In this document: positions 3,377 through 29,187 of the stretch, one piece after another
How the letters are laid out: the number at the start of each line of letters is the position of its first letter
How positions within the stretch are numbered: position 1 is the stretch's first letter
Notes under the pieces: generated by a model
What the model saw: the letters and a program-made list of their open reading frames with translations, nothing else
Databases searched by the model: none
What the model was told of the DNA's origin: nothing
Translations under genes and position numbers: made by a program
Assembly (NCBI GenBank): GCA_017515595.1
Contig: JAFWFL010000081.1
Location: 1-33,639 of the forward strand
Direction of reading: 5' to 3'
Source of the DNA: Coriobacteriales bacterium
GTDB lineage: Bacteria > Actinomycetota > Coriobacteriia > Coriobacteriales > UMGS124
DNA: 33,639 bases

Positions 3377-3607
3377 TTTGCGCAAAAGACAGGCCCTTTT
3401 TTGACCACAAATTTTGAATGTGTGACCACAAAAAGCTAAAACCAAGCATAAAACTCTATAGCCGAGAAACACTCAAAAAGCGTTAGGCTGTTTACCTGCG
3501 AGTTCTTCTCGGCAAAATGTTTACATTTCTCAATATTGCTTTGAGGAAGCGTCGATTGGCCACACATTCAAAATTTGTGGACAAAACTGAGCTCAGATTT
3601 TGCGCAA
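3377..3607. repeat. 231-bp imperfect palindromic element, copy 1
   Basis: The element is bounded by TTTGCGCAAA-type ends. The left arm GACCACAAATTTTGAATGTG (from 3403) is inverted at 3558-3580. A central 53-nt core (3461-3513) is closed by GCCGAGAA and TTCTCGGC. It aligns with copy 2 at 18165-18395 at a constant offset of 14788 with no gap, although the spacer 3514-3557 is unrelated in sequence. It lies between the end of the anti-sigma gene (plus) and tRNA-Gly (minus). No plausible protein is encoded. It could be a MITE-like element or a structured transcript. Confidence 0.75.
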
Positions 3608-3778: not shown

Positions 3779-3854
3779 TGGAGCGGACAACGGGGCTCGA
3801 ACCCGCGACCCCAACCTTGGCAAGGTTGTGCTCTACCAACTGAGCCATGTCCGC
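3779..3854 (-). tRNA. tRNA-Gly (anticodon GCC), copy 1
   Basis: The minus strand begins GCGGACA and ends TGTCCGC-T-CCA. The anticodon stem CAACC/GGTTG encloses TTGCCAA, giving anticodon GCC. The T-arm GGTTCGAGCCC is standard and CCA is encoded. The 76 nt are identical to the plus-strand copy at 5748-5823. Confidence 0.97.
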
Positions 3855-5453: not shown

Positions 5454-5537
5454 TGTACCAATAGGGACGGAGGTTTTTGACACAGGGAGATAGGGTGGTG
5501 TCTCCCTGTGTCAAAAACCTCCGTCCCTATTGGCACA
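5454..5537. repeat. 37-bp-arm hairpin, GGGACGG family
   Basis: The left arm 5454-5490 and right arm 5501-5537 are complementary at 36 of 37 positions around a 10-nt loop TAGGGTGGTG. The arms contain GGGACGGAGGTTTTTGACAC. It starts right after the stop of the unknown gene and could act as a 3' barrier to RNA decay, but it lacks a terminator T-run. Confidence 0.8.
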
Positions 5538-5747: not shown

Positions 5748-5823
5748 GCGGACATGGCTCAGTTGGTAGAGCACAACCTTGCCAAGGTTGGGGTCGCGGG
5801 TTCGAGCCCCGTTGTCCGCTCCA
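5748..5823 (+). tRNA. tRNA-Gly (anticodon GCC), copy 2
   Basis: The 76 nt are identical to the minus-strand copy at 3779-3854: acceptor GCGGACA/TGTCCGC, discriminator T, encoded CCA, anticodon GCC in the loop TTGCCAA. It lies 14 nt after tRNA-Val. Confidence 0.97.
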
Positions 5824-13292: not shown

Positions 13293-15551
13293 ATGCCTCA
13301 AACAAATCAAGATGTTTCTGCACAGAGTGGTTTTACGCTGGTGCCGCACTTTGGCGGAGAGCTCAAGAGATTTGGCCAGCAGGGCGGAGACGCCGAGTTC
13401 AAAGTAGTAAGCGACTACGAGCCCTGCGGAGACCAGCCCAAAGCAATTGAGCAATTGTGCAAAGGTGTGCGCGATGGCTTGCGCTATCAAACGCTTTTGG
13501 GCGTAACCGGCTCGGGCAAAACATATACCATGGCAAAGACCATTGAGGCTTTGGGCAAGCCCACGCTCATTATGGAGCCCAATAAGACGCTCGCAGCACA
13601 AGTCGCAAGCGAGATGCGCGATCTCTTTCCCAATAACGCTGTTGTCTATTTTGTGAGCTACTACGACTACTATCAGCCAGAGGCCTACATTCCTTCGACC
13701 GATACCTATATAGAAAAAGACGCGACCATTAACGAGGATATCGAGAAGCTCAGGCACCAGGCTACGGCCTATTTGCTGAGCCGACGCGATGTGATTGTGG
13801 TGGCCTCGGTCAGCTGCATTTACGGCATTGGCAGTCCTGATGATTATGCAGGTCTTGCTGCGAACGTATCTAAAGAATTACCGCTTGACCGGGATGACTT
13901 TATTCATGCGCTTATTGATATGCTCTATGACCGCGATGATTATGACTTCCATCGCGGTACCTTCAGAGTGCATGGTGACCGCGTAGATGTGTTCCCGCCC
14001 TACGGAGAGCATCCGCTGAGCATAGAATTCTGGGGCGATGAGGTTGAGGATATTCACGAGATAGACGAGGTAACCGGCGAGTTTCTCAAATCTTATGATG
14101 CAATCCCCATATGGCCGGCATCCCACTATGTAACCGCAAGACCAAAAGTAGAAAGCGCTCTTAAAACCATAGATGCCGAGAAGTGCGCGCGTGTAGAGGA
14201 ATTTAAGAAGGCCGGCAAACTGCTCGAAGCCCAGCGCCTTGAGCAGCGCGTATCTTATGATCTCGAGATGCTTGAGACGGTAGGTTTTTGTACCGGAATC
14301 GAGAACTATTCTCGCCATCTTGACGGCCGTAAAGCAGGAGAGCCGCCTTATACCCTTATTGATTACTTCCCGGATGATATGCTTTGCATCATTGATGAAT
14401 CGCATGTAACCGTGCCGCAAATCAGAGGTATGCACGAAGGCGACCGTTCACGCAAGATCACCCTGGTAGAGCATGGCTTTAGGCTTCCGAGTGCACTTGA
14501 CAACCGCCCCTTGCGCTTTGACGAGTTCGAGATGCGCATACCGCAGTACATTTATGTCTCGGCCACGCCCGGTGATTACGAAGAACGGGTAAGCCAGAAT
14601 GTTGCCGAGCAAATCATCAGGCCCACCGGTCTTCTCGACCCGCAAATAGATGTACGCCCCATCAGAGGCCAGATAGATGACCTCATAGCCGAGTGCAAAG
14701 CATATGCCGCAAAAGGGGAGCGCGTCCTTGTTACAACACTTACAAAGCGCATGGCCGAGAATCTCACCGACCACCTGCTTGACGAGGGTCTCAAATGCGC
14801 CTATATGCACTCAGATACCGCGACGCTCGACCGCGTTGAGATCTTGCGCAAGCTCAGGCTTGGCACCATTGACGTGCTTGTGGGCATTAACCTTTTGCGC
14901 GAAGGTCTCGACATCCCCGAGGTTGCGCTTGTCGCAATTCTCGACGCAGATAAAGAAGGCTTTTTAAGAAACCGCCGCTCGCTCATTCAAACCATGGGCC
15001 GCGCCGCACGTAATGTAAGCGGTACGGTTATTATGTATGCAGATACCATTACAGATTCAATGCGCATAGCCATAGACGAGACCCGCCGCAGAAGGTCATT
15101 GCAGGAAGCATACAACAAAGAACACGGCATAGAGCCCAAGAGCGTGCGTAAAGCAATAAGTGACATCACGAGCTTTATTACCGAGGCTACAGCCACCCTT
15201 GATGGCTACGAGCGCTCACGCGGCGATTCAATGGGCCATGGCACCTTCTACAAACCGGGTACAGAAGGCGCCCTCACCGCAGAAGCCGTAGCCTCAGAGC
15301 TTGCGCAGCTCCCGCGCAACGAAGTAGACAACATCATGCAAGCTCTCGAGGATGATATGCGTGCCGCAAGCGCAAAACTCGACTTCGAAGAAGCCGCAAG
15401 ACTCCGCGACCAATTGGTACGCCTCCGCTCCTTAATAGAAGGAAGCGAAGAATCCTCAGTCATAGAGCTATTAAAAAAGAACGCCCGCAAAAGCACCGGC
15501 CCCGGCGCCCCCGGCCCCGCCAAACGCTTCAACAAACACGCCAAACACTAG
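13293..15551 (+). CDS. uvrB: UvrABC excinuclease subunit B
   Basis: The 752-residue helicase-like protein verifies DNA damage after loading by UvrA and recruits UvrC for incision. Walker A GVTGSGKT is at 70-77. The beta-hairpin that inserts between strands is marked by YYDYYQPEAY (123-132). The Walker B-type motif is CIIDESH. Helicase motifs V and VI appear as LLREGLDIPEVALV and IQTMGRAARN. The C-terminal UVR domain (about 685-720) has LEDDMRAASAKLDFEEAARL in its typical form. A Lys/Gly/Pro-rich tail ends the protein. GAGGAG lies 10 nt before the ATG, and coaE ends 21 nt upstream. Its last six bases begin a direct repeat that recurs 93 nt downstream. Confidence 0.97.
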   Translation: MPQTNQDVSAQSGFTLVPHFGGELKRFGQQGGDAEFKVVSDYEPCGDQPKAIEQLCKGVRDGLRYQTLLGVTGSGKTYTMAKTIEALGKPTLIMEPNKTLAAQVASEMRDLFPNNAVVYFVSYYDYYQPEAYIPSTDTYIEKDATINEDIEKLRHQATAYLLSRRDVIVVASVSCIYGIGSPDDYAGLAANVSKELPLDRDDFIHALIDMLYDRDDYDFHRGTFRVHGDRVDVFPPYGEHPLSIEFWGDEVEDIHEIDEVTGEFLKSYDAIPIWPASHYVTARPKVESALKTIDAEKCARVEEFKKAGKLLEAQRLEQRVSYDLEMLETVGFCTGIENYSRHLDGRKAGEPPYTLIDYFPDDMLCIIDESHVTVPQIRGMHEGDRSRKITLVEHGFRLPSALDNRPLRFDEFEMRIPQYIYVSATPGDYEERVSQNVAEQIIRPTGLLDPQIDVRPIRGQIDDLIAECKAYAAKGERVLVTTLTKRMAENLTDHLLDEGLKCAYMHSDTATLDRVEILRKLRLGTIDVLVGINLLREGLDIPEVALVAILDADKEGFLRNRRSLIQTMGRAARNVSGTVIMYADTITDSMRIAIDETRRRRSLQEAYNKEHGIEPKSVRKAISDITSFITEATATLDGYERSRGDSMGHGTFYKPGTEGALTAEAVASELAQLPRNEVDNIMQALEDDMRAASAKLDFEEAARLRDQLVRLRSLIEGSEESSVIELLKKNARKSTGPGAPGPAKRFNKHAKH

Positions 15552-15672
15552 AATACCTGTGAATTAGACGGTTCTTGTGGTAACAGGGGACATATCCCTG
15601 TTACCAATGGACAAAACCCCCGTCAAAGTGACTTACTAGCACTAGAATAACTGTATTTAGACGGTTCTTGTG
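15546..15672. repeat. Direct repeat of the uvrB end with an enclosed palindrome
   Basis: Copies 15546-15579 and 15640-15672 share CACTAGAATA and TAGACGGTTCTTGTG with few differences. The first copy contains the uvrB stop codon. Between them lies a 10-bp palindrome, GGTAACAGGG (15579-15588) with CCCTGTTACC (15596-15605). This looks like a local duplication that captured the gene end, or insertion of related repeat units. Confidence 0.65.
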
Positions 15673-15684
15673 ACAGGAGGAAAC

Positions 15685-15827
15685 CGGTTCTTTTGTCATC
15701 TTAATAGAAATATGAGAGAAGGGGCTGTTATACATTCCGTCCTGAGCGTTTTTATGAGGCGAAAGCGAAGGATGGTATGTATAACAGCCCCTTCTCTCAT
15801 ATTTCTATTAAGATGACAAAAGAACCG
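15685..15827. repeat. Long perfect hairpin with conserved 71-nt core, element A
   Basis: Arms 15685-15735 and 15777-15827 are complementary over 51 bp without mismatch. The stem continues past one T-T mismatch to 15743/15769. The inner 71 nt (15721-15791) match element B at 29090-29160 at 52 of 71 positions without gaps, and six differences are compensated base pairs. The 25-nt loop GAGCGTTTTTATGAGGCGAA plus AGCGA holds a GC-GAAA-GC mini-hairpin. The outer 36-bp arms have no counterpart in B. It could be a structured RNA or a single-strand DNA hairpin element. It is not a standard terminator. Confidence 0.8.
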
Positions 15828-15955
15828 TCCCAATGTCACCCGTTGGTGAGCAATGTGGCTGTTTCACATATGATTTGGTGCTTTTGGTTTTGGCGCTTAA
15901 AGACTCGGGTTTTGAGGTATGATAATATAACGTGATTTGAGTATTGAAAGACGGT

Positions 15956-18031: not shown

Positions 18032-18164
18032 CTTTCACTTTAAGGTGTGGTTGGCAAAGTACAGGCCAAACAGCCATCCTTAGGGAAAAGATCGCCTGCT
18101 GAACATTCAATTTAGCATTCCCTTGAGGGAAAGACAGTCTAAAGGGGCAAATGAGGTGTATATT

Positions 18165-18395
18165 TTTGCGCAAAAAACTAACCTAATTTTGACCACAAAT
18201 TTTGAATGTGTGACTAAAAAGAGCTAAATCAAAGCAAAAATCTCAATAGCCGAGAAACTCTCAAAAAGCGTTAGTCTTTTTACCTGCGAGTTCTTCTCGG
18301 CAGATATATTTGATTGTGGGAAAAAGCATGGATGAAGTGCAAAATGGTCACACATTCAAAATTTGTGGCAAAAATCAGGTTGTTTTTTTGCGCAA
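18165..18395. repeat. 231-bp imperfect palindromic element, copy 2
   Basis: It has the same length and layout as copy 1 at 3377-3607. Ends are TTTGCGCAAA and TTTTGCGCAA. Inverted arms run GACCACAAATTTTGAATGTG (from 18191) and 18346-18368, and the 53-nt core 18249-18301 is closed by GCCGAGAA/TTCTCGGC. Outside the arms, its two ends match each other (about 16 of 20 inner positions) better than they match copy 1. It lies between convergent genes, the flavoprotein (plus) and the barstar-DUF1846 gene (minus). The remainder of 18032-18487 shows no gene. Confidence 0.75.
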
Positions 18396-18487
18396 CAAAT
18401 ATAATAAGAACCTTCGCCCACAGTCCTATCCTGAGATTGGCCTTATCTTTGTACTTGGGTTGACAAGAAGACTCAAAGCAAGGTTTT

Positions 18488-29062: not shown

Positions 29063-29187
29063 CTTATTTTCTATAAACCTTTATAAAGAGGGGTGGTTAC
29101 ACATTTAGTTCAGAGCGTTTTTATAAGGTGAGAGCGATGAACTCAATGTGTAACCACCCCTCTTTATAAAGGTTTATAGAAAATAAG
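29063..29187. repeat. Long perfect hairpin with conserved 71-nt core, element B
   Basis: Arms 29063-29105 and 29145-29187 are complementary over 43 bp with no mismatch. The 71-nt core 29090-29160 matches element A, and its 25-nt loop differs at only 3 positions. The mini-hairpin is GT-GAGA-GC, again with a GNRA tetraloop. The outer 27-bp arms are unrelated to those of A. It lies 34 nt before gatC and 111 nt after the Rrf2 terminator hairpin. The rest of 28878-29220 holds only a TTACCGA/TCGGTAA mini-hairpin (about 29043-29059). Confidence 0.8.

Follow-up and report, generated by a model that had tools for sequence, protein, structure and literature searches.

The window, a 33,639-nt stretch of DNA from a Coriobacteriales genome, contains two members (elements A and B) of a family of long palindromes that we class as an extreme variant of REP/REPIN-like palindromic repeats with the anatomy of bidirectional terminators, undescribed in this order. 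We consider it probable that these are dispersed REP/REPIN/MITE-like palindromes, amplified in this species and with distant relatives in the order, whose arms have been perfected and lengthened by template switching. Each copy consists of a strand-specific tip (a 25-nt loop and ∼10 bp with fixed non-Watson-Crick pairs) atop a long stem. The features of the two elements in the window are the following.

15670..15699, + strand: REP-like unit GTGACAGGAGGAAACCGGTTCTTTTGTCAT left of A, resembling the REPs that flank the RAYT genes of this genome
15685..15743, + strand: left arm of element A, 59 bp, of which the outer 51 bp are perfectly paired
15744..15768, + strand: conserved 25-nt loop of element A, GAGCGTTTTTATGAGGCGAAAGCGA
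15769..15827, + strand: right arm of element A
15813..15839, - strand: mirror REP-like unit right of A, reading GTGACATTGGGACGGTTCTTTTGTCAT on this strand
29063..29112, + strand: left arm of element B, 50 bp with one mismatch
29113..29137, + strand: conserved loop of element B, GAGCGTTTTTATAAGGTGAGAGCGA
29138..29187, + strand: right arm of element B

The arms of element A at 15685-15735 and 15777-15827 form the 51 bp of perfect pairing that the sequence-only reading had described, a length that far exceeds anything expected from chance. Including the tip, the stem of A is 59 bp long with two non-Watson-Crick pairs. The left REP-like unit of A lies across the edge of the palindrome, with its inner half in it and its outer half outside. 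Based on the reading of translations, A sits between uvrB and a gene for an Mrp-type ATPase, and B sits between a gene for an Rrf2-type regulator and gatC. The 3′ end of uvrB is duplicated at positions 15546-15680 of the window, where CACTAGAATAMCTGT..TTAGACGGTTCTTGTG occurs twice, ∼93 bp apart, between uvrB and A. As reported from the sequence alone, the cores of A and B are both 71 nt long, align without gaps, and are identical at 52 of 71 positions; pairs 5-67, 6-66, 11-61, 18-54, 21-51, and 23-49 differ in their letters and are Watson-Crick in both elements. Three further pairs differ and are non-Watson-Crick in one copy (16-56, T.T in A; 17-55, T.C in B; 19-53, G.T in A), all three no more than 8 bp from the loop.

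A blastn search of the same genome with element A identified 42 places, and the loop pattern AGCGTTTTTATNNNGNNNNAGCG had 45 exact and 3 one-mismatch matches there, compared to 0 for the reversed control. After removal of duplicates, 47 distinct copies were found, all with a nearly invariant 25-nt loop (identity of ∼93% between copies) and with stems that differ from copy to copy. The near invariance of the loop noted between A and B therefore extends across the family, and the further copies that the earlier reading had suggested looking for exist both in this genome and, as relatives, in another genus of the order. The GNRA tetraloop that it saw capping a small stem within the loop is present in 25 of 38 copies; the rest have TAAA, AAAA, CAAA, TAGA, or AATA. 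Stem lengths ranged from 32 to at least 111 bp (the latter from one copy cut by a contig end), and full-length copies mostly had stems of 32 to 94 bp. A few copies are degenerate and lack an arm (such as L012) or most of the stem (such as L178). Element ends are not common to many copies. Across 822 kb that were surveyed, corresponding to a quarter of the genome, the family loop was present in most of the long, short-looped palindromes, and the others were mainly pairs of REP-like units. Two contigs of the genome, C94 and C95 (L029 and L033), both break off in a single shared element, which allows them to be set side by side.

In further scans, the matches listed were due to chance. This was the case for the matches listed from a loose loop-pattern scan of genome contigs, none of which carried the stem where checked by script, and for scans of viral contigs. 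There was no match in the plasmids and phages searched, and two genomes of the same taxonomic family had no such palindromes in 253 kb sampled and no match to the covariation-based models of the core described below. The window also holds other repeats. Members of a second repeat family at 3378-3607 and 18163-18398 have inverted arms of ∼51 nt that contain TTTTGACCACAAATTTTGAATGTGTGAC and lie ∼130 nt apart; this motif had 20 matches in the 822 kb, clustered in L186 (G000:C125). A hairpin of 37 bp at 5454-5537 (97% paired, 10-nt loop) has REP-like letters without the conserved tip and lies just before a tRNA cluster. The tRNA-Gly(GCC) genes at 3779-3854 (- strand) and 5748-5823 (+ strand) are identical and lie in opposite orientation, 2 kb apart.

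The covariation test proposed by the earlier reading gave a clear result, in that the covariation of 38 aligned cores (alignment A1) exceeded that of all shuffled and slid controls. The tip and the stem, examined separately, behave differently. Within 10 bp of the loop, non-Watson-Crick pairs occupy fixed positions (1, 5, 7, or 8), and there were 25 G.U pairs versus 0 A.C pairs. Within the loop, an inner six-pair helix (CGTTTT / ARAGCG), an alternative to the small GNRA-capped stem, can form in 36 of 38 copies on the loop strand and in 0 of 38 on the complement, and the mean folding energy of the tip was -12.9 kcal/mol on the loop strand versus -6.9 kcal/mol on the complement. Because G.U pairs occur here without A.C, the inner helix is restricted to one strand, and folding is stronger on the loop strand, the tip is best understood as a strand-specific structure of single-stranded DNA or RNA. 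The suggestion that the hairpin is recognized by a protein is a possible reading for the tip.

Beyond the first 10 bp, the stems comprise 1,805 pairs, of which 1,763 are Watson-Crick, 13 are G.U, 9 are A.C, and 20 are others. Selection for pairing at the RNA level predicts that G.U pairs are common and exceed A.C pairs, an excess that was confined to the 10 bp closest to the loop, and the counts in the stem therefore speak against such selection. Arm identity within a copy is 94 to 97% beyond the first 10 bp, and identity between copies drops with distance from the loop to 60%, 44%, and 30%; the two arms of a copy therefore change together. In several copies the outer arms are REP-like units of the type flanking the six RAYT genes of this genome, and in other copies the arms have no shared sequence. 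Template switching during replication yields the same covariation without RNA selection (PMC8794818, PMC3820800). It extends and perfects quasipalindromes (PMC3820800, PMC7202029, PMC8794818), identity extension between imperfect inverted repeats is one of its known products (PMC3820800), and perfect hairpins can be both created and maintained by it (PMC8794818). Taken together, these observations point to DNA template switching, rather than selection on RNA, as the process that keeps the arms paired. During replication, the tip would fold into a hairpin, and the growing strand would switch template onto its own other arm and copy that arm. Such a switch would correct mismatches beyond the first ∼10 bp and would extend the palindrome outward into flanking DNA. 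The tip itself may be the recognition site of a trans-acting factor, most likely a mobilizing enzyme that acts on single-stranded DNA, and such recognition would explain why the tip alone is nearly invariant.

One locus (L174) provides a direct case of an arm copied from a flank. The palindrome there lies between two convergent genes, one encoding a family-2 glycosyltransferase and the other maf, which share an 18-nt end, ATCTTTAAATTTAATTAG, in mirror orientation; this end forms the outer 18 nt of the palindrome. The glycosyltransferase ended in [VF]KFN* in 29 of 30 fetched homologue loci (its own locus included), and matches to this protein extended to the last residue in more than 100 genomes, so its 3′ end is ancestral. 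Homologues of Maf align only up to residue 210 of 218, and for this reason the IFKFN at the end of Maf is an addition. Thus, the arm on the maf side is a mirror copy of the glycosyltransferase side, and at this single locus the arm corresponds to mirrored flanking DNA, as expected of a template switch. A stretch of 14 to 16 nt between the inner stem and the outer matching part does not match, which indicates that the arm was not copied in a single uninterrupted step or that the sequence changed later.

The positions of the copies resemble those of known palindromic repeats. Among 31 copies with both neighbors available, 10 lay between convergent genes (compared to 38 of 258 in the background; P = 0.02), and 5 lay between divergent genes. 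In tandem settings, the loop was on the gene strand eight times and on the other strand eight times. On both strands, the arms have G/C at positions 19 to 23 from the loop, followed by ∼60% T at positions 24 to 29, which is the composition of a GC-rich stem and U-tract as in intrinsic terminators. Based on this composition, each insertion could act as a bidirectional terminator, and if so, insertions that follow a stop codon or separate convergent genes would be tolerable.

Elements of this kind are also found outside the genome of the window. A model of the core made from the copies of this genome (R1) was searched against 397 genomes of the order and matched only the genome itself and one place in genome G219. 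Starting from this place, a second family was identified in G219, G053, and G210, which belong to a genus (g18) that we suspect may be Collinsella. Each of its copies has an outer stem that varies, then GNAG in an internal loop, and then an inner stem and a conserved loop (TTTGTGRAGCGAAGCGNAACC); they often occur as inverted pairs. Four of the six inner-stem pairs change on both sides, and none of 108 cells is G.U. A second model (R2), built from 18 g18 copies only, found 19 places at an E value of ≤5 in 822 kb of the window genome, all of them family elements and including A and B; in the reverse search, R1 scored the g18 copies. The tips of the two groups aligned better than 2,000 of 2,000 shuffles, and the loops alone aligned better than all but 22 of 5,000. 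Since the only places that a model from another genus picks up in 822 kb are A, B, and further copies of the family, the two groups form one wider superfamily. Matches to R2 were found in 30 of the 397 genomes, across 8 genera, of which the weaker ones were judged by eye and may include ordinary hairpins. Rfam had no match to the window elements (in the window it matched only tRNAs) or to the nine g18 loci searched.

The gap between ffh and thyA, as named by reading, differs among these genomes: it is ∼265 bp in G219, with an inverted pair of hairpins, 6 bp in G229, and ∼8 bp in G053 and G218. This comparison supports insertion as a unit, with deletion in the other genomes as an alternative. 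In another genome (L357 in G214), the same gap holds a 19-bp hairpin of another kind, with a loop of its own, at the place of the inverted pair of G219. No mobilizing enzyme for the family was found among the candidates examined. The genome of the window has six Y1/RAYT genes with REP-like flanks, none of which is flanked by the tip, the flanking sequences being other REPs. In G053 and G210, two of the three g18 carriers, there was no Y1/RAYT match at an E value of ≤0.001, which suggests that such an enzyme is not needed now in these genomes. A role for RAYT as the mobilizer is therefore not supported, given its flanks and these two genomes. Another candidate, a large ATPase-like gene with copies on either side in G219 (L274), was dropped because it reads as an ordinary gene.

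Comparison with known systems shows both what the family shares and what sets it apart. Like GTAG and CGTC REPs and REPINs (PMC3733652, PMC3116915), the copies are dispersed intergenic palindromes, mostly downstream of genes, and in a broad sense they fit a REP/REPIN-like description, being located near gene 3′ ends and between convergent genes. Some g18 copies are inverted dimers, and several copies in the window genome have REP-like outer arms. GTAG REPs have stems of 5 to 13 bp and CGTC REPs have stems of 8 to 9 bp, with loops of 2 to 20 nt (PMC3733652), whereas the stems here are 32 to at least 111 bp long and the conserved loop is 25 nt, outside the size range of REPs. With respect to the unpaired GTAG or CGTC tag that such REPs have at one end of the palindrome, GNAG precedes the inner stem in most g18 relatives, and the window family reads CGTCC or AGTTC there, inside the stem. 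Further, the family conserves the tip and not the stem, the arms of many copies are dissimilar, and it has no RAYT gene flanked by the tip. As in quasipalindromes perfected by template switching (PMC3820800, PMC7202029, PMC8794818), arm identity would be corrected and extended in mirror image, but those cases involve single sites or occur across RNA genes, and here the process is proposed for a dispersed family with a conserved tip. Intrinsic bidirectional terminators likewise have a GC-rich stem with a T-tract after it on both strands, close to gene 3′ ends, but they do not have the 23-bp conserved stem, the 25-nt conserved loop, the arms reaching far past the T-tract, or the dispersal of this family.

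The sequence-only reading favored selected secondary structure, such as an unrecognized RNA family in which the hairpin acts as RNA and selection for pairing maintains the stem. The additional copies, the strong covariation, and the conservation of the tip on one strand, where G.U occurs and A.C does not, are consistent with this part of the reading; compensatory change in the stem as proof of RNA selection is not upheld. There, G.U pairs are almost absent and are not in excess over A.C (13 versus 9 of 1,805), the arm at L174 mirrors 18 nt of host protein-coding sequence, and the orientation of the loop relative to transcription is unbiased (8 versus 8 in tandem settings). Together with the lack of an Rfam match and with perfect pairing far beyond the usual need of structured RNAs, this makes an RNA family unlikely. 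We likewise give little weight to the idea that these are REPINs of the ordinary kind, mobilized by RAYT transposases and with an unremarkable tip. The six Y1/RAYT genes flanked by REP-like sequence, the REP-like outer arms of several copies, and locations 3′ of genes or between convergent ones, which are also those of REPs (PMC3733652), would suit it. However, conservation lies in the tip and not in the REP part, the tip flanks none of the six RAYT genes, many copies have no recognizable REP arms, and at the threshold used there is no Y1/RAYT match in two of the three g18 carriers.

Two other explanations concern where the arms came from. The mobile unit may be the tip only (the loop with 10 to 30 bp), inserted as single-stranded DNA, with the second arm copied from the flank at insertion or at the next replication; we regard this as a minor possibility. 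If it were true, every insertion would make its target into a new perfect palindrome, and the family would be a transposable element with arms of host DNA. It is quite improbable that the tip was inserted into preexisting terminator hairpins, so that the arms are host terminators. The GC-then-T anatomy and the sites just past stop codons fit this explanation, but the ffh-thyA gaps of other species are only 6 to 8 bp long with no hairpin, and palindromes of 30 to 110 bp that have no tip are rare in the genome. Finally, many copies lie at contig ends, and C94 and C95 break within one palindrome, as chimeric inverted repeats from assembly or amplification might. Yet such breaks are the usual behavior of assemblers at perfect palindromes, most copies are inside contigs with two different flanks, mismatch positions are fixed with a single conserved loop in all copies, and related elements occur in other assemblies; the chance of an artifact is negligible. 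Dispersed REP/REPIN/MITE-like palindromes whose arms are perfected by template switching are thus the reading that we prefer.

Covariation in a stem is commonly taken as proof of a functional RNA. Here, DNA template switching is the better explanation for strong covariation that exceeds every shuffle across a large natural family, and the family provides a clear natural case in which strong covariation alone is not evidence of RNA selection. Counts of G-U versus A-C pairs and arm identity within copies versus between copies are simple tests that discriminate between the two. The strand-specific tip, in turn, makes the mobilizing factor searchable.
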